A program made the position numbers and the translations under genes. The notes under the pieces were generated by a model, which had not been told where the DNA came from, ran no database searches, and saw only the letters and a list, made by a program, of their open reading frames with translations. 64,000 nucleotides of DNA from the NCBI GenBank assembly GCA_017528315.1, contig JAFXOW010000003.1, positions 1-64,000 on the forward strand, written 5' to 3'. The first letter of the stretch is position 1. Every line of letters begins with the position of its first letter. Positions 7,626 to 20,812 of the stretch are shown here, piece by piece. This DNA is from Bacilli bacterium. Its GTDB lineage: Bacteria; Bacillota_I; Bacilli_A; RF39; UBA660.

Positions 7626-8894
7626 CTATAAATCTTTTAAACAAAATATAGCATAGATAGGTACATATCTAACATTTTTCTTTTTACTAAAATTATCTTC
7701 TGTAATTCTAATTGGAGCTGATACAATAAACTTAGAAGTAAACATAGCTAAAGCTTTAGCTTTAATTAATTTCATATTAACTATTTCAATAGGAATAATA
7801 GCACCTATCTTATTTTGAATGATAAAATTAATTTCACTTTTACCTTCTGATTGATAATAATATAAACTATATCCATATTCTACTAAAGTATTAGCAACAT
7901 TGCATTCTACTAAAATTCTTCTTATATCAGTATCTGTTAAAAATTTATTTTTTGTTAAATTCATCATACTATATAAAAGTCCTACATCATTGGGATATAA
8001 TTTAAAACTTTCATTATCTTTAAAACTTGATAGAGGACTCTTAACATCATTTAATTTAAAACTTCGATGAATTAAAGAATTAATTCCTAAAAAATTTATA
8101 CAAGATTCATAATCTTTACTACGACTCCCCTTCTTTATATTTCCATATTGAAATTTTTTATTTTCTTTTTCTAATCCTCTTGCTAAAGAATTAATAACAT
8201 CACATCCTCTTTGAATATCAATTAAATTCTTGGAGTTAATAGTTTCTCCTTTTATAATATCAATTATTTTATATTTAATACTTTCTATCTTACTACTATC
8301 AGTTTTTCTTAAATAATTATCAATTACTTCCGGATATCCTCCAGTTACTAAATAATCATTATATAAGTCAAGAGCAACTTGATGGAAAGGCATAGGAGTT
8401 CCGTTAATATAAGAGTCTTTTATAAAAGCTACTAACTGCTTTTGATCCGCATTTACTAAAAACTCTTCAAAATCCATTGGATACATAGCTTTAAACGTCA
8501 ATTCTTCTCCTTTAAATTTACTTAAGCAATCTTTTCTACTAGTAATCATGATTATGGGAAAAGAATTATCTACACTTGAAAATAATTTTATAGTTTTAAC
8601 AACATAGATATCATTAACATTATCAAGAATAATTAAAGTATCATCTTTTAAAATAGTTTCACCAGCTATAGCTGATAATTTAGTAACTAATCTTTCCGGA
8701 TTTTTTTCGCGCCTAATCAAACTTATTAAATCTACATTATTTTCTAAATTAAAATAAACATAATTTTTATAATTTCTTCTTGCAAATTCTAAAACCGAAA
8801 AGGTTTTTCCTACCTGTCTTGAACCATATATCATAAGAGGTTTCTTAATATTTTTTTGCCATTTTACTAAGTCATTATATATCTTACGTTCCAT
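7626..8894 (-). CDS. AAA ATPase with DUF4143 C-terminal domain
   Basis: A 422-residue ATPase of the common AAA_14/DUF4143 group. Walker A is GSRQVGKT (about 24-31) and Walker B is TLIILDNVND (about 88-97). The C-terminal part (about 210-420) contains the DUF4143 arrangement, ending in a nuclease-like strand SEGKSEINFIIQNKIGAIIPIEI with the D/E-x-K pattern typical of these proteins. Family members are frequent, often multi-copy and of unproven role. The start ATG at 8894 has GGGAGG upstream. It is monocistronic as far as I can see. Confidence 0.85.
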   Translation of the reverse strand: MERKIYNDLVKWQKNIKKPLMIYGSRQVGKTFSVLEFARRNYKNYVYFNLENNVDLISLIRREKNPERLVTKLSAIAGETILKDDTLIILDNVNDIYVVKTIKLFSSVDNSFPIIMITSRKDCLSKFKGEELTFKAMYPMDFEEFLVNADQKQLVAFIKDSYINGTPMPFHQVALDLYNDYLVTGGYPEVIDNYLRKTDSSKIESIKYKIIDIIKGETINSKNLIDIQRGCDVINSLARGLEKENKKFQYGNIKKGSRSKDYESCINFLGINSLIHRSFKLNDVKSPLSSFKDNESFKLYPNDVGLLYSMMNLTKNKFLTDTDIRRILVECNVANTLVEYGYSLYYYQSEGKSEINFIIQNKIGAIIPIEIVNMKLIKAKALAMFTSKFIVSAPIRITEDNFSKKKNVRYVPIYAIFCLKDL

Positions 8895-11153: not shown

Positions 11154-11471
11154 ATGTTTAATTTAGTATCAAAGTTTGAACCAAATGGTGATCAACCAGA
11201 AGCAATAGACAAATTAGTTGAAGGAGTAAACAAAGGAAAAAAAAATCAAGTATTATTAGGAGCTACAGGAACTGGAAAAACTTTTACAATCGCCAATGTT
11301 ATACAAAAAACGGGTAAGCAAACATTAGTTCTTGCTCATAATAAAACACTTGCAGGACAATTATATTCCGAATTAAAAGAACTATTCCCAAATAATCATG
11401 TTGAATATTTTGTATCTTATTATTATACACCATTAAATTTCGTGTTATTTAGTCCATCTAATACCATTTAA
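11154..11471 (+). pseudogene. uvrB: Truncated uvrB 5' end (left copy)
   Basis: This reading frame matches the first 88 residues of UvrB, including the Walker A segment [15 protein letters not shown], then leaves the family abruptly after VEYFVSYY and stops at 11469-11471. It keeps a ribosome site (AGGAAGTGA) and a promoter. Compared codon by codon with the intact uvrB at 18015, I count about 44 base differences in the first 234 bases but only about seven amino-acid differences, so both copies evolved under selection in separate lineages before being brought together. The next 32 bases are identical. A short product without helicase motifs should be non-functional. See the block entry at 11388-18280. 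Confidence 0.9.
11388..11419 (+). repeat. uvrB: 32-bp direct repeat, left copy (junction in uvrB)
   Basis: Identical to 18249-18280, while the preceding 234 bases of the two uvrB copies match at only about 81 percent. It is the last uvrB-matching sequence before the left copy diverges, so it marks the probable crossover or attachment core. Confidence 0.8.
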
Positions 11472-11579: not shown

Positions 11580-12287
11580 TTAAATTTCATTATCAAATAA
11601 TTCCATTATCATTTCAGAAACGCAACTATATTCTTTCTTTGCAACACTTTTTAATTCAACGACTGAATTTTCCATAGCATATCCATTATAATCTTTAACC
11701 ATATTAATATCACTATAACCATCTCCTATAGTATATATATTTGTTTTTTTAATTTTTAAATAATTTGATAATAATTTTATTGACTTTGACTTATTTATAT
11801 CTTTAGAAATTATTTCAAGCATATTATCATTTATGATATAAGAAATTACTTCTCGATATTTATTATTTATTCTATCATTTATTTTTTTTATATTTATATC
11901 ATTATTATATACTATTGCTATTTTAGTTAAATCTAAATGTTCAAAATTTACCCTACTTTCTAATTTACTACAGCAAAAATAAAATTTTGTCTTAGCAAGT
12001 TCTAAATCGTTTTTGATATCTTTTATAATATCATTTTTAATTGAAAAATTACACAAAACTTCATTATTTCTATTAATAATCGTTGATCCATGATTTATTA
12101 AAGCATAGTCATATTTTAAATTATATTTATCCACTTCTTCTTGCAAATCAAGATAGCTTCTTCCTGTTGCAATTACAAATATATTACCTTTTTTTCTAAA
12201 TTTATTAACCAATAAGTTATTTTTTTCTATATCTTTATCATTCAAATAAAATGTTTTATCATAATCACTAACTATCATTTTTGGCAT
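11580..12287 (-). CDS. HAD-superfamily hydrolase, Cof type
   Basis: A Cof-like HAD phosphatase of 235 residues. Motif I is DYDKT (the first Asp is the nucleophile), motif II is the Thr in IATGRS, the cap domain occupies the middle, and motif IV is GDGYSDINMV. An upstream in-frame ATG exists, but AAAGGAG stands at the right distance from the ATG at 12287, so I take that start. It is the last gene of the minus-strand block of the island, 72 bases after serS. Cof enzymes act on sugar phosphates, FMN, PLP and other small phosphates. In this context it could dephosphorylate an intermediate of the product, but nothing in the sequence shows the substrate. Confidence 0.85.
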   Translation of the reverse strand: MPKMIVSDYDKTFYLNDKDIEKNNLLVNKFRKKGNIFVIATGRSYLDLQEEVDKYNLKYDYALINHGSTIINRNNEVLCNFSIKNDIIKDIKNDLELAKTKFYFCCSKLESRVNFEHLDLTKIAIVYNNDINIKKINDRINNKYREVISYIINDNMLEIISKDINKSKSIKLLSNYLKIKKTNIYTIGDGYSDINMVKDYNGYAMENSVVELKSVAKKEYSCVSEMIMELFDNEI

Positions 12288-12359
12288 ATTTTTCTCCTTT
12301 TTTAAATAAGACAACTTATTATTTTAACATTAATAAGTTGCCAATTATTTAAATATAAT

Positions 12360-13664
12360 TTACTTTTTTAAAACTTTTTTCTTTTTAGATTCTATTACCT
12401 CAAGACCACCCATATATTTTCTTAAAACTTCTGGTACTATAACACTACCATCCAATTGCTGAAATTGCTCTAATATAGCAGGCAAAAGTCTACTGGTTGC
12501 AAGTCCTGATCCATTTAAAGTATTAATATAATTTGATTTTCCCGTAATACTATTCTTATATTTTATATTTCCTCTTCTTGCTTGATAATCTCTACAATTT
12601 GAAACTGAACTTATCTCTTTATATATACCCATACTAGGAATCCAAATTTCAACATCATATGTTCTACACATACTTGCACTACAATCTCCAGCAGCTAATT
12701 TACTTAATTGATAATGCAATCCTAATCCTTTAACTAAATTTTCAGCTTTTGTTAGCATTTCTTCAAAGGCTTTATCAGATTCTTCTGGCAACGTAAACTG
12801 TACCATCTCAATTTTATTGAATTGATGTCCTCTTATAATTCCTCGTTCTTCTTTTCTTGAACTTCCGGCTTCTCTTCGATAACAAGGAGTATAAGAAAAA
12901 TATTTTTTTGGTAACTCACTTTCATCTAATATTTCATTTCTATGTAAATTAACTAAAGCTGTTTCAGCTGTTGGTAATAAAAATTTCCCATTTTTATCAT
13001 TAAAATTATCTATCCAATATACTTCTTCTTGAAATTTTGGAAATTGACCAGCAACATAACCACATTCATAATTAAGCATATGAGGAACTAGCATAAAATT
13101 CCATCCATCTTTTATATGTTCATTTATACAATAATTTAGCAATGCCCACTCTAATCTTGCCCCTTCATTTGTATATATCCAACTACCTTGACCAGCAAGT
13201 TTTACACCTCTATCATAATCAATTAATCCAAGATTTTTTTCAAGTTCAACATGATCTTTTGGCAGAAAATCAAATTGTGTTTTTTTTAAAAATTGATATA
13301 AAACTTGATTGTTTTCTTTGCCTCCGCTTACTAAATCATCATCTGGTATGTTAGGCAATGATGCAAGTTTATCGTTTAATTCTAATTTAATGGTTGATAA
13401 TAAATTTGCTATACTATTTATTTTTTCTCCTATACTTTTTGTTTCTAATACTAAATCACTGATATCTTCATTATTTGATTTTAATCGTGCAATTTTTTTA
13501 GAATTTATATTTCTTAATTGTTGTAATTTTTCCAATGCTTGCTGTAATTTTAATTTTTCATCATCTAATCTCACAATCTCATCCAGAGAACATTCACCCA
13601 TTCTTTTACTTAATGCCTTTTCAATTTTTTCTTTATCGGCTTTTATCCTTTTAATGTCAATCAT
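12360..13664 (-). CDS. serS: Seryl-tRNA synthetase (island-borne, probably a second copy)
   Basis: A full-length class II SerRS of 434 residues: an N-terminal coiled-coil arm for tRNA-Ser (about 20-100), then the catalytic core with the TAE loop (LLPTAETALVN), motif 2 (YTPCYRREAGSSRKEERG), the Ser/ATP region and motif 3 (NGSGLATSRLLP). The active site looks intact, so it should charge tRNA with serine. The text IRGHQFNKIEMVQFTLPEES and AGDCSASMCRTYDVEIW differ from the usual Bacilli type and resemble SerRS of some distant phyla. The ATG at 13664 with GGGAGG is preferred over one 30 bases upstream. It is the fourth gene of an apparent operon, 22 bases after the S51 peptidase. It could provide Ser-tRNA for a product, or be a resistant replacement; a separate housekeeping serS cannot be checked here. 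Confidence 0.9.
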   Translation of the reverse strand: MIDIKRIKADKEKIEKALSKRMGECSLDEIVRLDDEKLKLQQALEKLQQLRNINSKKIARLKSNNEDISDLVLETKSIGEKINSIANLLSTIKLELNDKLASLPNIPDDDLVSGGKENNQVLYQFLKKTQFDFLPKDHVELEKNLGLIDYDRGVKLAGQGSWIYTNEGARLEWALLNYCINEHIKDGWNFMLVPHMLNYECGYVAGQFPKFQEEVYWIDNFNDKNGKFLLPTAETALVNLHRNEILDESELPKKYFSYTPCYRREAGSSRKEERGIIRGHQFNKIEMVQFTLPEESDKAFEEMLTKAENLVKGLGLHYQLSKLAAGDCSASMCRTYDVEIWIPSMGIYKEISSVSNCRDYQARRGNIKYKNSITGKSNYINTLNGSGLATSRLLPAILEQFQQLDGSVIVPEVLRKYMGGLEVIESKKKKVLKK

Positions 13665-13686
13665 TTTAAACCTCCCATTTTTTTGC

Positions 13687-14373
13687 TTATTCATTTATAA
13701 TATCTTTTTTAAAATTAGCAAAATTATGATATACATATTTACCATTTTTAAAAATCACATACTTCTTTTTTCCTATAATACTTGCTTTATTATCACTTAT
13801 AAGTATTACATCTTCTTCTGGCAAATATATAATTTTTTCTTTTTTTAAATTTTCTTTTAAATAATTACTATTTCTTTTAAAGCTTTTTTTATTTAAATGA
13901 CATAAAATTGAGTAATCATTTAACATATTGAATCCCTTTTTATCTTTCAAATCAACTATATTACCATCATCTAATAAACAAGTATCTATACTTTTTCCAA
14001 AGACAATTGCTCCTGCACTTCCTCCAAAAATGATTCCTCCATTATTTAAATAGTTCATAATATTTTCATAATTTGAATACTCTTTTAGCTCACTTAATAA
14101 TTTATAAGTATTTCCTCCACCGATAAATAATGCTGAATAATTAGATAAAACACAATTTGATAATTCTAAAGATGATCTTACCATTTCAAAGTTTTCAACC
14201 TTCATATTTTTAATTTCCTCTTTAAACCAATTATAGCAACCATCATATTTTTCACTTTCCATAGCAAGTGGTATATATAATATTGGTTTTGTTTTATCTA
14301 TAGTTCTAGAAAAGTGTAATAATGCATTTTTAATTTGTCTTCCACTTCCACCACCGCATAAATATAATTTCAT
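13687..14373 (-). CDS. Peptidase family S51 (peptidase E/cyanophycinase-like)
   Basis: A 228-residue serine peptidase of the S51 group, a class I glutamine amidotransferase-like fold. The nucleophile elbow FGGSAGA puts Ser at 119, and His159 in the ILCHLNKKS segment fits the second triad residue, as in Salmonella peptidase E (Ser120/His157). GGGNTY at 85-90 is another family signature. Peptidase E cleaves Asp-X dipeptides and cyanophycinase cleaves Asp-Arg units, so this enzyme probably acts on a short or unusual peptide. It starts seven bases after the AlaRS-like gene. In the island it could trim a leader, release a residue or degrade a toxic peptide conjugate (immunity). Which of these applies cannot be read from the sequence. 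Confidence 0.85.
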   Translation of the reverse strand: MKLYLCGGGSGRQIKNALLHFSRTIDKTKPILYIPLAMESEKYDGCYNWFKEEIKNMKVENFEMVRSSLELSNCVLSNYSALFIGGGNTYKLLSELKEYSNYENIMNYLNNGGIIFGGSAGAIVFGKSIDTCLLDDGNIVDLKDKKGFNMLNDYSILCHLNKKSFKRNSNYLKENLKKEKIIYLPEEDVILISDNKASIIGKKKYVIFKNGKYVYHNFANFKKDIINE

Positions 14374-14379
14374 AATATT

Positions 14380-15378
14380 CTACTTCCTTATCTTTATCAT
14401 TTTTTTCACTATACTTTCATCAACACCTGATGCAAGTAATCTTTTAACTAATTCTTCACGCGATATATTAATATTAATACCTGATAGATTGTCATATCCT
14501 TCTTTTGTTAATTGATCAATTATATATCTATTACAATTTCTAATATACTCATTCTTTATTAGGTTTAAATCAATATCTTTATTTATTTCTTGCCAATCTT
14601 TCCAATATTTCACACATTCTATTAAGTACGCTTCTTCTCTTTCAGAAAAATCACGGCCATGTAAAATACGAACCAGTGTTTTAGAAAATGAACGAGCACG
14701 ATAACCAGAATTTTTATTTGACGGAAAAACATTATTTACAGCAAGTAATGCTAAAACAGATAAGTATGCTTTAACTTCTGCTTTAAGTTCTAAACTATCT
14801 TCATACAAATCAAAATATGACTTTCCACTTACACACCATCTTATTCTTTCTAATCCAAAACCTACATCACTCATAGAATCAATTCCAATACTTTTTCCAT
14901 CTCTTTTTATACTTGTAAAAAAAGTAGTATCTCCTAATTCTATATCTTTATAATAGTGAAATGTTGTTTTGCCAGTTACTATTAAATCACCCCATAAACG
15001 CTCATAATTTTCTGTTTTGCTTGAAATATCTGACTGTTTCATTCCTAATTCATAAAATAAATTTAAAAAATCTTTAACTAAAATATTATGTTCCATCTCT
15101 GAAATATTAAATCCTGATGTTGTTGAATTTACAAAAGCAATAGATGTTCCCTCACAAGTCGAATCTTTAAATTGCGTTCTAATAACTGGCTGTGATATAT
15201 AAATCTTCTTACTTGAATCTAGTATATTTTTCCTATATAAGGAAACTATCGGTTGAATTCCAGCTGTTAAAAATACAGTATCTTTATTATTAACAACTTG
15301 ATGTGGTTGTAAACAATTATAACCTCTATCTAAAAAATATTTTTTTAAGTCTTGAGCTGATAATAAATCCTTTTTCAT
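14380..15378 (-). CDS. Short alanyl-tRNA synthetase-like protein (no editing or C-Ala domain)
   Basis: The 332 residues match only the N-terminal part of AlaRS (normally about 870): the class II catalytic domain with a motif 2-like segment (ISQPVIRTQF, Arg67) and motif 3 (DVGFGLERI, Arg178), followed by the helical tRNA-recognition region (GYRARSFSKTLVRILHG, near 230-245). The editing domain with its HxxxH zinc site and the C-Ala domain are absent, and both ends are clean, so this looks like a stable short paralogue and not a broken gene. The motif 2 loop (CEGTSIAFVNSTTSGFN) is unlike housekeeping AlaRS. It may activate an amino acid and transfer it to tRNA or another acceptor, without proofreading. 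It lies between MAT and the S51 peptidase with 14- and 6-base gaps. Confidence 0.8.
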   Translation of the reverse strand: MKKDLLSAQDLKKYFLDRGYNCLQPHQVVNNKDTVFLTAGIQPIVSLYRKNILDSSKKIYISQPVIRTQFKDSTCEGTSIAFVNSTTSGFNISEMEHNILVKDFLNLFYELGMKQSDISSKTENYERLWGDLIVTGKTTFHYYKDIELGDTTFFTSIKRDGKSIGIDSMSDVGFGLERIRWCVSGKSYFDLYEDSLELKAEVKAYLSVLALLAVNNVFPSNKNSGYRARSFSKTLVRILHGRDFSEREEAYLIECVKYWKDWQEINKDIDLNLIKNEYIRNCNRYIIDQLTKEGYDNLSGININISREELVKRLLASGVDESIVKKMIKIRK

Positions 15379-15392
15379 ATACTTTCCCTTTA

Positions 15393-16646
15393 TTAATAAC
15401 TATTTAACCTTATCTTTCCTTGAATTATTTTTTTAGTAATATTTTTATGATTTTTTATTTCTTTTTTTACCAATTTATCTATTTCATTTTTTATTTCATC
15501 AGATATTTCTTTATTTAATTCCACACTTACATTCCAGGGGTCTTCAATACTATCTCCCATTTTAGAAGTACAAAATACAACATTTTCAATATTAAATTTA
15601 TCATATATTTTTTTACTTATAATATCTCCAATAGCAGTAAAAAGTTTCCCTGTATGATAAACCGGATTTTTTCCACAAGATGCTTCCATACTAAAGTTTC
15701 TACTGAATGGAATAACACCTCTTGAACGATTTCCACGTCCTACTGCTCCTTCATCACCACTTTCAACCGCACTTCCTATTGCTGTAAGATATAAATCATT
15801 TTTTTCATAATTATCTCGTGTATTTAAGTAAATTGAAATTTCATTTTCTTTAAATTCTTTTTTTACCACCTTTAGTATATCTTTTTTTATCATTTCCATT
15901 TTATTTTTATAATCTTCTAAGTCTTTAACATATACAGAAATAAGTGGTACACAACTTGTAATTTCAATTTTTTCTTGTTTTCTCATTCCCATTACTTTAA
16001 TATCATTTCCTACCCAAGGATATTTTATCTTATATTTTTCTGAATTTAAAGTTTGTTCAATAGATAGAACCACTCTTTCTAACTTACTCATGGGATAATA
16101 ACTAACTGTAGTTGAAGTATCATTACATCTATTAAAATTATTATGTTTTAAAAGGTCTTCTTCGGATATTGCCTCAAAGAATTTTTTTCGTTCATTTTTA
16201 GTTGTATCATCAGTATCATAAACTACACCTGGTCCTTCATTATGATGTGTATTATCAACTATTATTAAATATTTATCCACATTCAAAAGTGGAAAAAGCT
16301 CTTTTAAATAACCCTTAATTGTACTTGATACAATAGACATATAATCTATTTTTTTATCTTTATATCTATCAGTAAATCGCCCATTTACTAGTATACGTAT
16401 TTGTGAAACCATCTCACCTTTTCCAAAATAAACTTTTGAACCACCACCCAAAATAGATAATTTGTCTATCATATGTCGAAGTATTACTCCATAATTTTCA
16501 AGGCAATAATTAGAATAATTAGCTGATATTTTTTCAGCAAGAGTATCACAAATATTATCAGGATGCCCTTTTCCTTTTGTTTCTACAACTTCAAATAATA
16601 AATCATCAATATTTTCTTTTTTACTTGTATAAATAAATGTCTTCAT
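15393..16646 (-). CDS. S-adenosylmethionine synthetase, archaeal type
   Basis: The 417-residue protein belongs to the archaeal MAT family, not to bacterial MetK. Characteristic segments are ETKGKGHPDNICD (about 22-34), NRCNDTSTTVSYYPMS, GNDIKVMGMR, ESGDEGAVGRGNRSRG and SMEASCGKNPVYHTGK. It makes SAM from methionine and ATP. It is the first long gene of the island's minus-strand operon, 73 bases after the small peptide gene, and has a GAGGAG ribosome site. Archaeal-type MATs occur sporadically in bacteria, sometimes next to specialised metabolism genes, and point to horizontal acquisition. The obvious local consumer of SAM is the radical SAM protein at 17065. A resistant or substrate-shifted replacement for MetK is an alternative role. 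Confidence 0.88.
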   Translation of the reverse strand: MKTFIYTSKKENIDDLLFEVVETKGKGHPDNICDTLAEKISANYSNYCLENYGVILRHMIDKLSILGGGSKVYFGKGEMVSQIRILVNGRFTDRYKDKKIDYMSIVSSTIKGYLKELFPLLNVDKYLIIVDNTHHNEGPGVVYDTDDTTKNERKKFFEAISEEDLLKHNNFNRCNDTSTTVSYYPMSKLERVVLSIEQTLNSEKYKIKYPWVGNDIKVMGMRKQEKIEITSCVPLISVYVKDLEDYKNKMEMIKKDILKVVKKEFKENEISIYLNTRDNYEKNDLYLTAIGSAVESGDEGAVGRGNRSRGVIPFSRNFSMEASCGKNPVYHTGKLFTAIGDIISKKIYDKFNIENVVFCTSKMGDSIEDPWNVSVELNKEISDEIKNEIDKLVKKEIKNHKNITKKIIQGKIRLNSY

Positions 16647-16719
16647 TTTTATATTCTCCTCATTTCTATTTTAAAAAACTACCAATAATATAAAAAGACA
16701 ATAACAAAACAAAATTCGT

Positions 16720-16839
16720 TCAATTATTGCCCTTAGATATTAGTTCACTTAATAAAGCACAAGAAGTCATATGACTATAGTTTACAATATAGCCACAACT
16801 TATGTAACCATGTATGTTTTTCCTAATGTAACTTCTCAT
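16720..16839 (-). CDS. Small peptide, 39 residues; candidate modified-peptide precursor
   Basis: An ATG at 16839 preceded by GAGGAGGAG (16843-16851), the strongest ribosome site I saw in the window, opens a 39-codon frame ending in TGA at 16720. The peptide begins MRSYIRKNIHGYISCG, is rich in Tyr, Ser, Ile and Asn, has two Cys (15 and 27) and ends SKGNN. It is basic at the N-terminus with no signal peptide, and has a consensus -35 upstream. It is the first gene of the MAT/AlaRS-like/S51/SerRS/HAD operon and is divergent from a radical SAM gene, the usual setting for a RiPP precursor. A regulatory leader peptide is the main alternative. No homologue is known to me. Confidence 0.6.
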   Translation of the reverse strand: MRSYIRKNIHGYISCGYIVNYSHMTSCALLSELISKGNN

Positions 16840-16864
16840 AGACTCCTCCTCAAGTAAAATTAAT

Positions 16865-16895
16865 TATATACTACCATATTTTTTCTAAATGTCAA
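16865..16895 (-). promoter_or_regulatory. Promoter of the small peptide/MAT operon
   Basis: Minus-strand -35 TTGACA (16890-16895, perfect) and -10 TATATA (16865-16870) with a 19-base spacer; a perfect TATAAT overlaps two bases further downstream. Confidence 0.55.
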
Positions 16896-16929
16896 TTCTT
16901 TTTTTTATAAAAATTCTTACTAATTTCTA

Positions 16930-16958
16930 TTGTAATAAAGAAGAAAAAATGATAAAAT
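16930..16958 (+). promoter_or_regulatory. Promoter of the radical SAM gene, with a long leader
   Basis: -35 TTGTAA (16930-16935), a 17-base spacer and -10 TAAAAT (16953-16958). The leader to the ATG at 17065 is about 100 bases and holds a TCGAA-A-TTCGA palindrome (about 16965-16975) and two ATAAACAATT repeats (about 17000-17021), possible operator sites. Confidence 0.5.
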
Positions 16959-17064
16959 CATATATCGAAATTCGAATGAATTAGATTTAAATAACAAATA
17001 TAAACAATTATAAACAATTTAAATGTTTTAATCATAATAAAACGGTTTTTATGGAGGTTTCACA

Positions 17065-17952
17065 ATGAAAGAATTTACTGGAAACAAAGTAATAATAATG
17101 TGTTGTTCTAATTGCAATTTATCTTGTAAGCATTGTTATATAAGTTATAAAGGTAATTTCGAACCAAATAAATTACTAAAAATTGTTAAACAATTAAAAG
17201 AAAAGTATATAATATCTCTAAATGGCGCCGAAGTATTAACAAATTTGGAATATTTAAAATCTTATCAAGAAATTGGACAAAAATATATATTATCAAACGG
17301 ATTGTTAATTTATCAAAATCCACAGATTATCGAAAAACTAATCAACTATGGATTAAAGTCTGTTTCAATATCTTATCATTTTGGAATTCATGATAAAATT
17401 TCATTAATTCCATCAAAAATTTTAGAAAATGTATTTCAATTATTAAAAAGTAATGAATTTAATTTCAGATTAATGACTACTATTACTTCACAAAATTATA
17501 ATATGATTGAAGAGATATGTAAAAAATCTTTAGATTTAGGTGCTAAAGGAATATATTTTACTAATTTTATTTTACAAGGAAATGCATTAAATATTATTGA
17601 TAAAAATTTAATATTAAACGAAAATCAAATTAGAATTTTTTTTGAACAACTAATTAAATGTAGGGAACAGTATGATATTAATCAACTTTTAATTGAGAGA
17701 GATGCCGGGTTTGGAAAGAATCCAATTTCAAGTCATGATAATTTTAAATGTCCAAGTATAAATAATCAAGTTATATTAACGCCAGATAATAATATATATC
17801 CATGCATTTTTCTTGCAAAAAAAGGATATGAAATTGGAAAATATATAGATGGTAAAATTTTTATTAATGATGAATATTACAATATAAATAACGGCAATAT
17901 TTGTTATGCTAAAGAAATATGTAACAAAGGAAAAAAATTGATTAAAAAATAA
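17065..17952 (+). CDS. Radical SAM protein with C-terminal Cys cluster (peptide-maturase-like)
   Basis: The 295 residues start with the radical SAM motif CNLSCKHC (Cys17, 21, 24), which binds the [4Fe-4S] cluster that cleaves SAM. The core strand text includes ISLNGAEVL, where GGEP usually occurs, so the GGE motif is altered to NGAE. After residue 230, four Cys residues (FKCPSINN, IYPCIF, Cys280 and Cys286) suggest a SPASM- or Twitch-like auxiliary cluster domain, as in enzymes that modify ribosomal peptides. It is divergent from the small peptide gene with a shared 225-base promoter region, and lies 62 bases before uvrB. The ATG is chosen with ATGGAGG upstream. The specific reaction is unknown; thioether or C-C crosslinking of the peptide is inference. 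Confidence 0.8.
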   Translation: MKEFTGNKVIIMCCSNCNLSCKHCYISYKGNFEPNKLLKIVKQLKEKYIISLNGAEVLTNLEYLKSYQEIGQKYILSNGLLIYQNPQIIEKLINYGLKSVSISYHFGIHDKISLIPSKILENVFQLLKSNEFNFRLMTTITSQNYNMIEEICKKSLDLGAKGIYFTNFILQGNALNIIDKNLILNENQIRIFFEQLIKCREQYDINQLLIERDAGFGKNPISSHDNFKCPSINNQVILTPDNNIYPCIFLAKKGYEIGKYIDGKIFINDEYYNINNGNICYAKEICNKGKKLIKK

Positions 17953-18014: not shown

Positions 18015-19970
18015 ATGTTTGATTTAGTATCCAAATTTGAACCAAATGGAGATCAACCACAAGCAATTAAAGAATTAGTTGAAGGTGTTAATAATGGTAA
18101 AAAGCACCAAGTATTACTTGGAGCAACTGGAACAGGTAAAACATTTACGATTGCAAACGTTATACAAAAAACAGGTAGACAAACACTTGTTCTTGCTCAC
18201 AATAAAACTCTTGCTGGACAACTTTATTCTGAGTTAAAAGAGTTGTTTCCAAATAATCATGTTGAATATTTTGTATCTTACTACGATTATTATCAACCAG
18301 AAGCCTATGTACCATCAAGTGATACTTATATTGAAAAAGATGCTCAAATAAATGATGAAATAGATGAATTACGTCATTCAGCAACAAGTTCCCTACTTTC
18401 TTATGATGATGTTATAGTAGTTGCATCTGTTTCTTGTATCTATGGTATTGGAGAAGTCGAAGAATATCGTAATAAAACCTTAACTTTAAAAGTTGGTGAT
18501 ACCATTGAACGTAATAAAGTAATGCATAAACTTGTTGATATGTTATATGAAAGAAATGAACTTGATTTTAAAAGAGGAACTTTTAGAGTTAGAGGAGATA
18601 ATTTAGAAATAATTCCTTCATCAGAACATTCTCATGGACTTCGTATTGAATTTTTTGGAGATGAAATAGATAAAATAAGCGAAATAGATGTTCTAACAGG
18701 TACTATTTTAAATAATAAAAAAAGCGTTACTTTATTCCCAGCCAGTCACTTTGTAACTAATGATGAAACACTAAAACTTGCTGTTAACAACATTAAAGAA
18801 GAGTTAGATGAAAGAATCAAATATTTTATGGATAATAATAAACCACTTGAAGCTGAACGTATAAGAGAACGTACCAACTATGATATGGAAATGCTTCTTG
18901 AAACCGGTTTTTGTCATGGCATTGAAAATTATTCACGACATATTGCTCTTAAAGGTCCAGGTGAAACACCTACCTGTTTACTTGATTTCTTCAAAAAAGA
19001 TTATTTAATGGTCATAGACGAAAGTCATGTAACTGTTCCTCAAATACGAGGCATGTACAATGGAGATAGAGCTCGTAAAATGAATCTTGTAGACTATGGA
19101 TTTAGACTACCTAGTGCCCTTGATAATAGACCTTTAAAATTTCAGGAATTTGAATCCAAAGTTAATCAAGTAATTTATGTATCTGCAACTCCAGGTGAAT
19201 ATGAACTTAATTTAACTAATAATCAATTTATTGAACAAATTATCAGACCAACTGGACTATTAGATCCTACTATCGAAATTCGTAAATCTTCGGGCCAAAT
19301 AGAAGATTTAGTTGGAGAAATAAATGATCGAATCAAAAAAAATGAAAGAGTTTTAGTCACAACTTTAACAATTAGAATGGCTGAAGAATTGACTAATTAT
19401 TTAAAACAATTAGATATTAATGTTGCTTATCTTCACTCAGAAATTAAAACTCTTGAACGTATGAAAATAATAAGAGATTTAAGAATTGGAACTTATGATG
19501 TATTAGTTGGAATAAATCTACTTAGAGAAGGATTAGATATTCCTGAAGTTAGTCTAATTGCTATAATCGATGCTGATAAAGAAGGATTTTTAAGAAGTAG
19601 TAGAAGTTTAATTCAAACCATTGGAAGATGTGCAAGAAACGAACATGGACATGTTATTTTATATGCTGATAATATAACTGATTCTATGGAATACGCGATA
19701 AATGAAACTAAAAGACGAAGAAATATTCAAGAAGAATATAACAAAATACATGGTATTATTCCAAAAACGATTCAAAAAGAAATACGTGATCTTATTTCTA
19801 ATGCTGATGAACGAGAAGAAAGACGCGAAAAACAAAAACTAAGTAAAAAAGATAAGATGAATATGATTGCCAGAATAGAAGAAGAAATGAAAGAAGCTGC
19901 TAAAAACCTTGACTTTGAACGAGCTATGGAACTAAGAGATGTATTATTTGAGATGAAAAGCGAATTATGA
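18015..19970 (+). CDS. uvrB: UvrABC excision nuclease subunit B
   Basis: A full-length UvrB of 651 residues, the damage-verification helicase of nucleotide excision repair that works with UvrA and UvrC. It shows Walker A GATGTGKT (about 36-43), the beta-hairpin region with Tyr residues ([12 protein letters not shown]), the DEAD-like [20 protein letters not shown], helicase motif VI (QTIGRCARN) and the C-terminal UVR motif ([15 protein letters not shown]). The ATG has AAGGAGG upstream, and a possible promoter (TTGAAT, 17 bases, TAAATT) lies after the radical SAM stop. Its first 266 bases are duplicated, in diverged form, at 11154. The stop overlaps the next gene (ATGA). Confidence 0.97.
18249..18280 (+). 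repeat. uvrB: 32-bp direct repeat, right copy (inside intact uvrB)
   Basis: Identical to 11388-11419. It encodes part of [11 protein letters not shown], near residue 80 of UvrB. If the block excised by recombination between the two copies, a single uvrB would be left with the left-hand promoter and 5' end. Confidence 0.8.
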
Positions 19971-20812
19971 GATTTAAAAAAATTTATATAGAAATTACTA
20001 ATATATGTAATTTAAATTGTTCATTTTGTTCAACAGATAATCGAAAATTAAAAGAAATGACACCTAATGAATTTGAAATAATAATTAATAAAATTAAAAA
20101 TTATACTAATAACATCTACTTACATATTAAGGGTGAACCTCTTCTTCATAGCAATTTAGAAAAAATATTAGAAATTGCTAAAAATAATCATATAAATATA
20201 AGAATCACTACTAATGGAACTCTATTAAAAGAGAAAATAAATATTTTAAAAAACTTTGATAATATTAAACAAATAAACATTTCTCTTCATTCAGAAAATA
20301 ATAAACCAAATTATTTTGAAGATATTTTTCTTGCTAGTGATATTTTATCCACCAAAATTCCTATAGTTTATCGTATTTGGACATTAAAAAATAATTTTTT
20401 AGATAATTTATCCACAACAATCGTGGATATAATTATAAATTTTTATAATCTTGACGATTGTTTTATAAATAAAGTTATAAAATATAATAATATAAAAATT
20501 AAAGAAAATATTTATTTAGATAAAGATAATAAGTTTATTTGGCCAAATAAAGCTAACAATAATATTAAAAAGAATAATCAAGGAACTTGTCTTGGAACCA
20601 GAAATCACATTGGGATACTAGTAAATGGTGATGTTGTACCTTGTTGCCTTGATTCAAAAGGACTTTTAAAACTTGGTAATATTTTTGATGAATCTATTGA
20701 TGATATAATAAATAATTTTCTATTCAAAGAAATAAATGAAGGATTTAAAAATCATAAAATATCTAATAACATATGTTGTAATTGTACATATAGAATTAAC
20801 AAATTTAAATAA
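19967..20812 (+). CDS. Radical SAM/SPASM protein coupled to uvrB
   Basis: The 281-residue protein carries CNLNCSFC (Cys14, 18, 21), the SAM-binding segment IKGEPLLH in place of GGEP, and a C-terminal SPASM-like region with Cys residues in CLGTRNH, VVPCCLD and NICCNCTY. It resembles a widespread Firmicutes family of unknown substrate that I know only as radical SAM/SPASM proteins. Its ATG overlaps the uvrB stop by four bases, so it is translationally coupled to uvrB. I find no small peptide gene next to it, so a function in protein or tRNA modification or in repair is as likely as peptide maturation. It is outside the uvrB-bounded block. Confidence 0.85.

Follow-up and report, generated by a model that had tools for sequence, protein, structure and literature searches.

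The described systems closest to the locus reported here are the biosynthetic pathways of ascamycin and albomycin. In the first, AcmF, a truncated alanyl-tRNA synthetase (AlaRS), alanylates a nucleoside with alanine taken from Ala-tRNA, also accepts Ser and Gly, and has lost the residues needed for ATP and alanine activation (D232E, N219Q; PMC12945691). In the second, AbmF, which resembles an aminoacyl-tRNA synthetase (aaRS), condenses a nucleoside amine with seryl-adenylate; the second seryl-tRNA synthetase (SerRS) of the producers, SerRS2/AbmK, supplies the seryl-adenylate and gives immunity, and AbmJ is a radical S-adenosylmethionine (SAM) enzyme (PMC9032320). Resistant second aaRS copies in antibiotic producers share about 30% identity with the first copy (PMC9437257). 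Here, we describe a gene cluster at positions 11580-17952 of a 64,000-nucleotide stretch of DNA (hereafter the window) from a Bacilli bacterium of the order RF39. The window comprises bases 1-64000 of a 186 kb contig, from a genome of 1.36 Mb that is 93% complete. The conserved unit of the cluster is three genes, encoding an archaeal-type methionine adenosyltransferase (MAT) paralogue, a truncated AlaRS-like protein and a peptidase of family S51. By analogy with albomycin and ascamycin, this unit may follow an aminoacyl-nucleoside logic, a reading to which we assign a probability of about 0.45-0.5.

Genomes were searched with the AlaRS-like protein and then with an alignment of its relatives, and all ten neighbourhoods were read. 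The module was present in nine genomes, all of one family (9/385 genomes sampled from the order), and on one contig of the rumen genome RUG591, whose AlaRS-like protein is 96% identical in amino acid (aa) sequence to that of the window. Four more matches in the order were weak (E 4e-7 to 5e-6) and lay in frames of 585-895 aa resembling ordinary aaRS genes. In each of the ten loci having the AlaRS-like gene, the S51 gene follows it and an archaeal-type MAT is found in the same cluster; the strict tight order MAT, AlaRS-like, S51 is kept in eight, while in the other two the genes lie within one cluster. Because the three genes recur together in 10/10 loci, their linkage is not due to chance, nor is the pairing of MAT with the AlaRS-like gene background, since a MAT of family PF01941 scored above cut-off in only one of 392 genomes sampled across the phylum, namely the window's own. 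An earlier reading of this DNA made without database searches (hereafter the sequence-only reading) had listed seven features between 11580 and 17952 as a linked unit. All seven were found, and the core of the unit is genuine. The tight minus-strand operon also described there is likewise real, with the correction that serS and the S51 gene overlap by 8 bases if the far serS start is used. The features are as follows.

11154-11471, plus strand: 5' part of uvrB in a truncated copy, with about 285 homologous bases, forming the left boundary of the apparently inserted block
11580-12287, minus strand: HAD-IIB (Cof-type) phosphatase, accessory (Hydrolase_3, 4.6e-28)
12360-13664, minus strand: second, divergent SerRS, accessory (serS TIGR00414, 422 bits, cut-off 302)
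13687-14373, minus strand: peptidase S51 (PepE/aspartyl dipeptidase-like), core (PF03575, 6e-25, 88.5 bits)
14380-15378, minus strand: putative truncated AlaRS-like ligase/transferase of 332 aa, core (predicted fold and profile)
15393-16646, minus strand: archaeal-type MAT paralogue with altered methionine site, core (PF01941, 4e-103)
16720-16839, minus strand: open reading frame (ORF) of 39 aa with a good ribosome-binding site (RBS), leader or peptide, outside the conserved unit
17065-17952, plus strand: radical SAM protein whose C-terminal cysteines are SPASM-like, accessory (Radical_SAM, 1.9e-6, slightly below cut-off)
18015-19970, plus strand: complete uvrB, right edge of the apparently inserted block

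The HAD frame extends to 12314 with a TTG start, and the ATG at 12287 is the better one; likewise, the SerRS frame spans 12360-13694, and the ATG at 13664, behind GGGAGG, is preferable, the TIGR00414 match beginning at residue 11.

The phylogenetic trees of MAT, AlaRS-like protein and S51 peptidase share the same pairs, i.e. the window with RUG591, genome G794 with G692, G526 with G749, and G558 with G800. G749 belongs to the same genus as the window, with whose housekeeping SerRS and AlaRS its own also group, whereas its module groups with that of G526. Since this placement conflicts with the host relationship, the three genes move jointly between genera. The insertion sites also differ: the neighbouring gene is uvrB in the window, RUG591 and G749 and relA in G804, the other loci are elsewhere, and decayed relA-like sequence can be read upstream of MAT in G692 and G794. 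That the three genes are a real and mobile unit is practically certain.

The MAT paralogue covers the whole PF01941 profile (positions 6-395 of 395; 345.7 bits against a cut-off of 27), and is about 28-39% identical to plasmid-borne archaeal-type MATs. In the enzyme from Thermococcus kodakarensis (TkMAT), the catalytic acid is His33, the carboxylate of methionine is bound by His62, Asn64 and Asn161, Asp201 and Asp283 bind ribose, and Asp144 and Leu145 come from the gating loop (PMC3853416). With TkMAT, MjMAT and SsMAT, all eight MATs of the core clade of the module share the fold, the catalytic His (in an invariant GHPD), the NDTS Asn and the Asp of GxDIK that binds ribose. They differ from these enzymes in that His62 is replaced by Arg and Asn64 by Met in 8/8 sequences, respectively 29 and 31 residues past the catalytic His, as in the solved enzymes. 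In addition, a conserved segment of greater length, NTHHNEGPGVxY...NER, takes the place of the gating loop with Asp144-Leu145, and NDTSTTVSYYP stands where the motif NDTSFGVGYAP would be expected. The window's MAT falls under every NCBIfam cut-off for MATs, its best score being 309 bits where 577 are required, and the lowest cut-off, 435 bits for a subfamily model, is missed as well. From these replacements we infer that the core-clade enzyme has probably changed its acceptor specificity. An AlphaFold2 (AF2) model of the MAT was poor, with a predicted local distance difference test (pLDDT) score of 60, and was not used.

Divergent PF01941 paralogues in compact, operon-like clusters also occur on replicons of Streptomyces, Megaera, Halorussus and Parageobacillus. 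Unlike the module, most of these clusters encode Gfo/Idh/MocA oxidoreductases, a NUDIX or glycosyltransferase gene is present in several, and no annotated AlaRS-like or S51 gene was seen in them; a TIM-barrel gene is common to the Streptomyces, Megaera and Halorussus clusters and to G558 and G800, but not to that of Parageobacillus. NUDIX, MIPS or glycosyltransferase genes are found in some of these clusters (L094-L097, L099, L100), which have the appearance of biosynthetic clusters not yet described. In Cupriavidus, Burkholderia, Phenylobacterium and Methylocystis, the motifs of the PF01941 copies are close to canonical and the neighbouring genes are unrelated.

The AlaRS-like protein gave no match in Pfam, but was related to Pyrococcus horikoshii AlaRS by a profile search (6.6e-5) and to AlaRS by hhalign. 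The best PDB matches of its AF2 model (pLDDT 86.3, predicted template modelling score 0.86) are AlaRS structures (Foldseek 7.5e-13 for AlaRS of A. fulgidus). The protein comprises the catalytic domain followed by the beginning of the tRNA-recognition domain (PSN-GYR), and ends at 332 aa without an editing or C-Ala domain; the host has a separate, full AlaRS. Most members of the family retain the PSN-GYR segment, with PSQ in G526 and G749, while the YDTYGFP segment of the host AlaRS was not found in them. AlaRS reads G3:U70 with an Asn-plus-Asp pair. Arg67 of motif 2, Arg178 of motif 3 and Asp171 are invariant in all ten proteins, and Asp171 aligns with the Asp that binds the amino group in AlaRS. 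A by-eye equivalence of Glu147/Asp150 with Glu209/Asn212 of AlaRS conflicts with the profile alignment and is not claimed.

The suggestion, already made in the sequence-only reading, that this protein uses an activated amino acid is likely to be right. AcmF is also a truncated AlaRS consisting of a catalytic and a tRNA-recognition domain, and it too belongs to a nucleoside pathway. However, the Asp corresponding to Asp171 has become Glu in AcmF, whereas in the module this Asp and the class II Arg residues are invariant (10/10), so that the AlaRS-like protein could activate its amino acid by itself. The family may thus have the layout of AcmF and still activate its own amino acid.

As for the third core gene, the nucleophile motif GGSAGA and H159 of the S51 peptidase are invariant in 10/10 loci, and the closest solved structures are Lmo0363 and alpha-aspartyl dipeptidase (PepE structures). 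The immunity peptidase of the microcin C system, MccF, is a member of family S66. Both are serine peptidase-like enzymes, and the S51 enzyme is likewise predicted to cut an aminoacyl-nucleotide as an immunity function, but the two belong to different families.

The genome of the window contains two complete SerRS genes, the second full SerRS gene being located on contig C10, and G804 also has two. Only in these two genomes does a second SerRS lie beside the S51 gene; in the other loci it is absent or broken. The cluster SerRSs of the window and G804 are 68% identical to each other and share 29-32% identity with every housekeeping SerRS of the family, a group with internal identities of 67-85%; the identity to the host's own copy is 29%. 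SerRSs of other Firmicutes are nearer (about 40%). In RUG591, a remnant of serS (L010, 4480-4770) keeps the 5' and 3' ends, with the middle deleted. By analogy with the second aaRS copies of antibiotic producers, the divergent SerRS is the strongest hint to a target. A HAD gene is found at the same place in the window, RUG591 (91% identity), G749 and G804, but identities outside the near-identical pair are 24-32%, so that these genes are not clearly orthologous.

It is the combination of the altered methionine site of MAT, the class II residues of the truncated AlaRS-like protein and the 29%-identical second SerRS that argues for an aminoacyl-nucleoside chemistry. For its substrates, product and target we infer the following scheme. 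The MAT paralogue would transfer the adenosyl group of ATP onto an acceptor that resembles methionine or derives from it, so that SAM or a nucleoside amino acid similar to SAM is formed. To this nucleoside, the AlaRS-like protein would join Ala, Ser or Gly, small amino acids that it would either activate itself or take from an adenylate or an aminoacyl-tRNA. The product would mimic an aminoacyl-adenylate and so poison an aaRS, in this scheme most likely SerRS; that SerRS is the actual target remains doubtful. The S51 peptidase would hydrolyse the aminoacyl bond, as immunity or as maturation, and the divergent SerRS, where present, would be a resistant target that may also supply seryl-adenylate. 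The HAD and radical SAM genes would be optional tailoring genes. In a more specific version, which we consider unlikely as it stands, MAT would build a sulfonium nucleoside on an analogue of methionine that is modified at the carboxyl group or linked to a peptide, and acylation by the AlaRS-like protein would yield an aminoacyl-sulfonium nucleoside mimicking seryl- or alanyl-adenylate.

The albomycin warhead pathway (AbmF, AbmK/SerRS2, AbmJ) is similar in that its cluster, too, combines an aaRS-like ligase and a radical SAM gene with a second SerRS that has diverged to about 30% identity (PMC9032320, PMC9437257); moreover, in both cases a nucleoside amino acid acylated with an amino acid would mimic seryl-adenylate. 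However, the block in the window is devoid of the PLP-dependent (pyridoxal phosphate) transaldolase AbmH, the epimerase AbmD, the carbamoyltransferase and the siderophore genes; the MAT and S51 genes have no counterpart in albomycin, and the SerRS is optional in the module. Because defining genes or residues are missing, the module is not a member of either the albomycin or the ascamycin pathway. A description of any cluster with this gene set was also not found in the literature searched (archaeal MAT combined with aaRS-like or S51 genes and radical SAM genes), in keeping with the sequence-only reading, which knew of none.

Several observations weigh against the aminoacyl-nucleoside reading. 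AbmF was compared with the AlaRS-like protein by its described function. The MATs of G558 and G800, in spite of their longer loop, retain the His and Asn of a normal MAT. No dedicated exporter is conserved across the module loci. The SerRS is present in 2/10 loci and has been deleted in RUG591 while the core genes are intact, so that, if SerRS is the target, self-protection must come from the S51 peptidase or from an insensitive host enzyme. Finally, the genome of the window yielded no bacterial MetK, so that its MAT could simply be the SAM synthase.

If the aminoacyl-nucleoside reading is correct, the module would represent a nucleoside-antibiotic-like pathway of compact size in bacteria of gut and rumen that have small genomes and are not known for natural products and, in the sulfonium version, a three-enzyme antibiotic pathway leading to a new class of aminoacyl-sulfonium nucleosides, borne by reduced-genome gut bacteria. 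The rebuilt methionine site of the MAT offers a possible route to SAM analogues, the AlaRS relative may serve as a stand-alone amino acid ligase, and the divergent second SerRS is a direct and testable pointer to the target.

The main rival to the aminoacyl-nucleoside reading is SAM provision, in which MAT would be a SAM synthase acquired by hosts without MetK, and its neighbours passengers or parts of a SAM-dependent housekeeping pathway. G558, G800 and six genomes of the window's genus that lack the cluster also gave no match for bacterial MetK; its N-terminal domain (PF00438) is absent from seven of the eight genomes tested in that genus. Across the family, PF02773 was found in only 44/193 genomes, leaving 149/193 without a detectable bacterial MetK, a scarcity that suggests SAM uptake or another source of SAM. 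Yet MetK is present in 6/9 module-bearing genomes, the ligands of the methionine carboxylate are replaced in the core clade, and the linkage of MAT to the AlaRS-like and S51 genes is constant. We therefore regard SAM provision as decidedly unlikely. A short, divergent MetK (about 340-370 aa) occurs in 5/9 module-bearing genomes and in 12/193 genomes, an enrichment that is confounded by relatedness.

Another alternative comes from G558 and G800, which hold a larger variant of the cluster with a different radical SAM/SPASM gene and with TIM-barrel, PIG-L, glycosyltransferase and kinase genes. The glycosyltransferase, PIG-L deacetylase and kinases beside MAT, AlaRS-like and S51 genes recall MshA/MshB/MshC, and the AlaRS-like protein might, with a logic like that of MshC, amidate an amino sugar to give an aminoacyl-sugar or a compound similar to low-molecular-weight thiols. 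This is improbable as a function of the module, because the other eight loci lack these genes and have nothing else that supplies a sugar.

A role in anti-phage defence, with the module making a modified nucleotide or alarm compound, would fit its position in defence-rich variable regions: an AbiD homologue flanks it in RUG591, AbiEi and PD-T7-5-like genes accompany it on an element in G558, and it is placed at the uvrB insertion site and on a serine-recombinase element. However, PADLOC gave no matches for the HAD, S51, AlaRS-like or MAT proteins and only 17 bits to pVip for the radical SAM protein, and no sensor or effector domain is present. The AlaRS-like protein had no match in phage and plasmid collections, MAT had none in phages, and alignments of both found nothing among viral contigs (IMG/VR). 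In addition, the copies of G841 and G804 lie among ordinary chromosomal genes. All this makes a defence role quite improbable.

In G558, the variant module is carried on a serine-recombinase element, together with the AbiEi and PD-T7-5-like genes, that splits a penicillin-binding-protein gene (L040, 569-1822 and 13997-16292).

The weakest alternative is the one favoured by the sequence-only reading, namely a ribosomal peptide of 39 aa, with two conserved cysteines, into which the radical SAM enzyme would introduce a crosslink before the aaRS-like enzymes extend or cap it. The 39-codon ORF may be translated, judging from its strong AGGAGG-type RBS and an upstream TTGACA...TATAAT pair. RUG591 retains both Cys15 and Cys27, each of the two near-identical loci has the peptide together with the radical SAM gene, and the radical SAM protein weakly matches PapB/ranthipeptide maturases. 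However, the only homologue of the peptide is that of RUG591 (82% aa identity), where, for want of the stop codon, the frame continues to 57 aa. A tblastn search with the peptide over all module loci retrieved no homologue in the other eight module-bearing genomes; G804 has only 22 bases between MAT and relA. The radical SAM gene of the window type is at the module in the window and RUG591 only: beside the module, it has no homologue in six of the eight other genomes, and the contigs of the remaining two, G794 and G526, end just upstream of MAT. In eight other genomes, radical SAM homologues of 40-52% identity lack such a short ORF alongside, which is the outcome that the sequence-only reading had named as refuting its model, and the three core genes occur without peptide and radical SAM genes. 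The ratio of non-synonymous to synonymous substitution rates between the window and RUG591 is 0.06 for MAT, 0.13 for the radical SAM gene, 0.15 for the AlaRS-like gene, 0.23 for S51 and 0.25 for HAD; that of the peptide is 0.36, which over 117 sites is not decisive. Since the peptide has no homologue beyond RUG591 and its frame is not terminated there, a peptide pathway is highly improbable, and the product is very probably a small molecule.

Within the 39-codon ORF (16720-16839), a perfect 12-base palindrome, AGTCATATGACT, lies in a stretch of about 28 bases that is identical in the window and RUG591. The radical SAM homologues away from the module (L106-L114) have as neighbours, according to gene names read from their translations, mostly choline-kinase/APH-like kinases, thymidylate-kinase-like, amino-acid ABC transporter, PHP-domain, dehydrogenase and glycosyltransferase genes, and possibly belong to another small-molecule pathway.

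A feature absent from the sequence-only reading is the bracketing of the block by uvrB sequences. The 5' ends of the truncated and the complete uvrB are 83% identical over 270 bases (87% in aa sequence over 101 residues), and the complete uvrB is 84-86% identical to that of seven genomes of the same genus. Because the two 5' ends differ to this extent, the block appears to have entered together with foreign or diverged uvrB sequence. The GC (guanine-plus-cytosine) content of the block does not differ from that of its surroundings, and an Rfam scan of the 11-20 kb region showed no T-box or SAM riboswitch upstream of MAT. The 5' flank of uvrB, partially duplicated in the window (11154-11471 and 18015-18300), also holds the module in RUG591 and G749, which suggests a recurrent insertion site. 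Directly 3' of uvrB, at 19967-20812, there is a second radical SAM/SPASM gene, which lies beside uvrB in G749 too and seems to be part of the chromosomal background. Lastly, upstream of MAT in G692 (L055, about 8607-8710), a hydrophobic ORF of 32 aa with a strong RBS, followed by a terminator-like hairpin, resembles a type I toxin gene.

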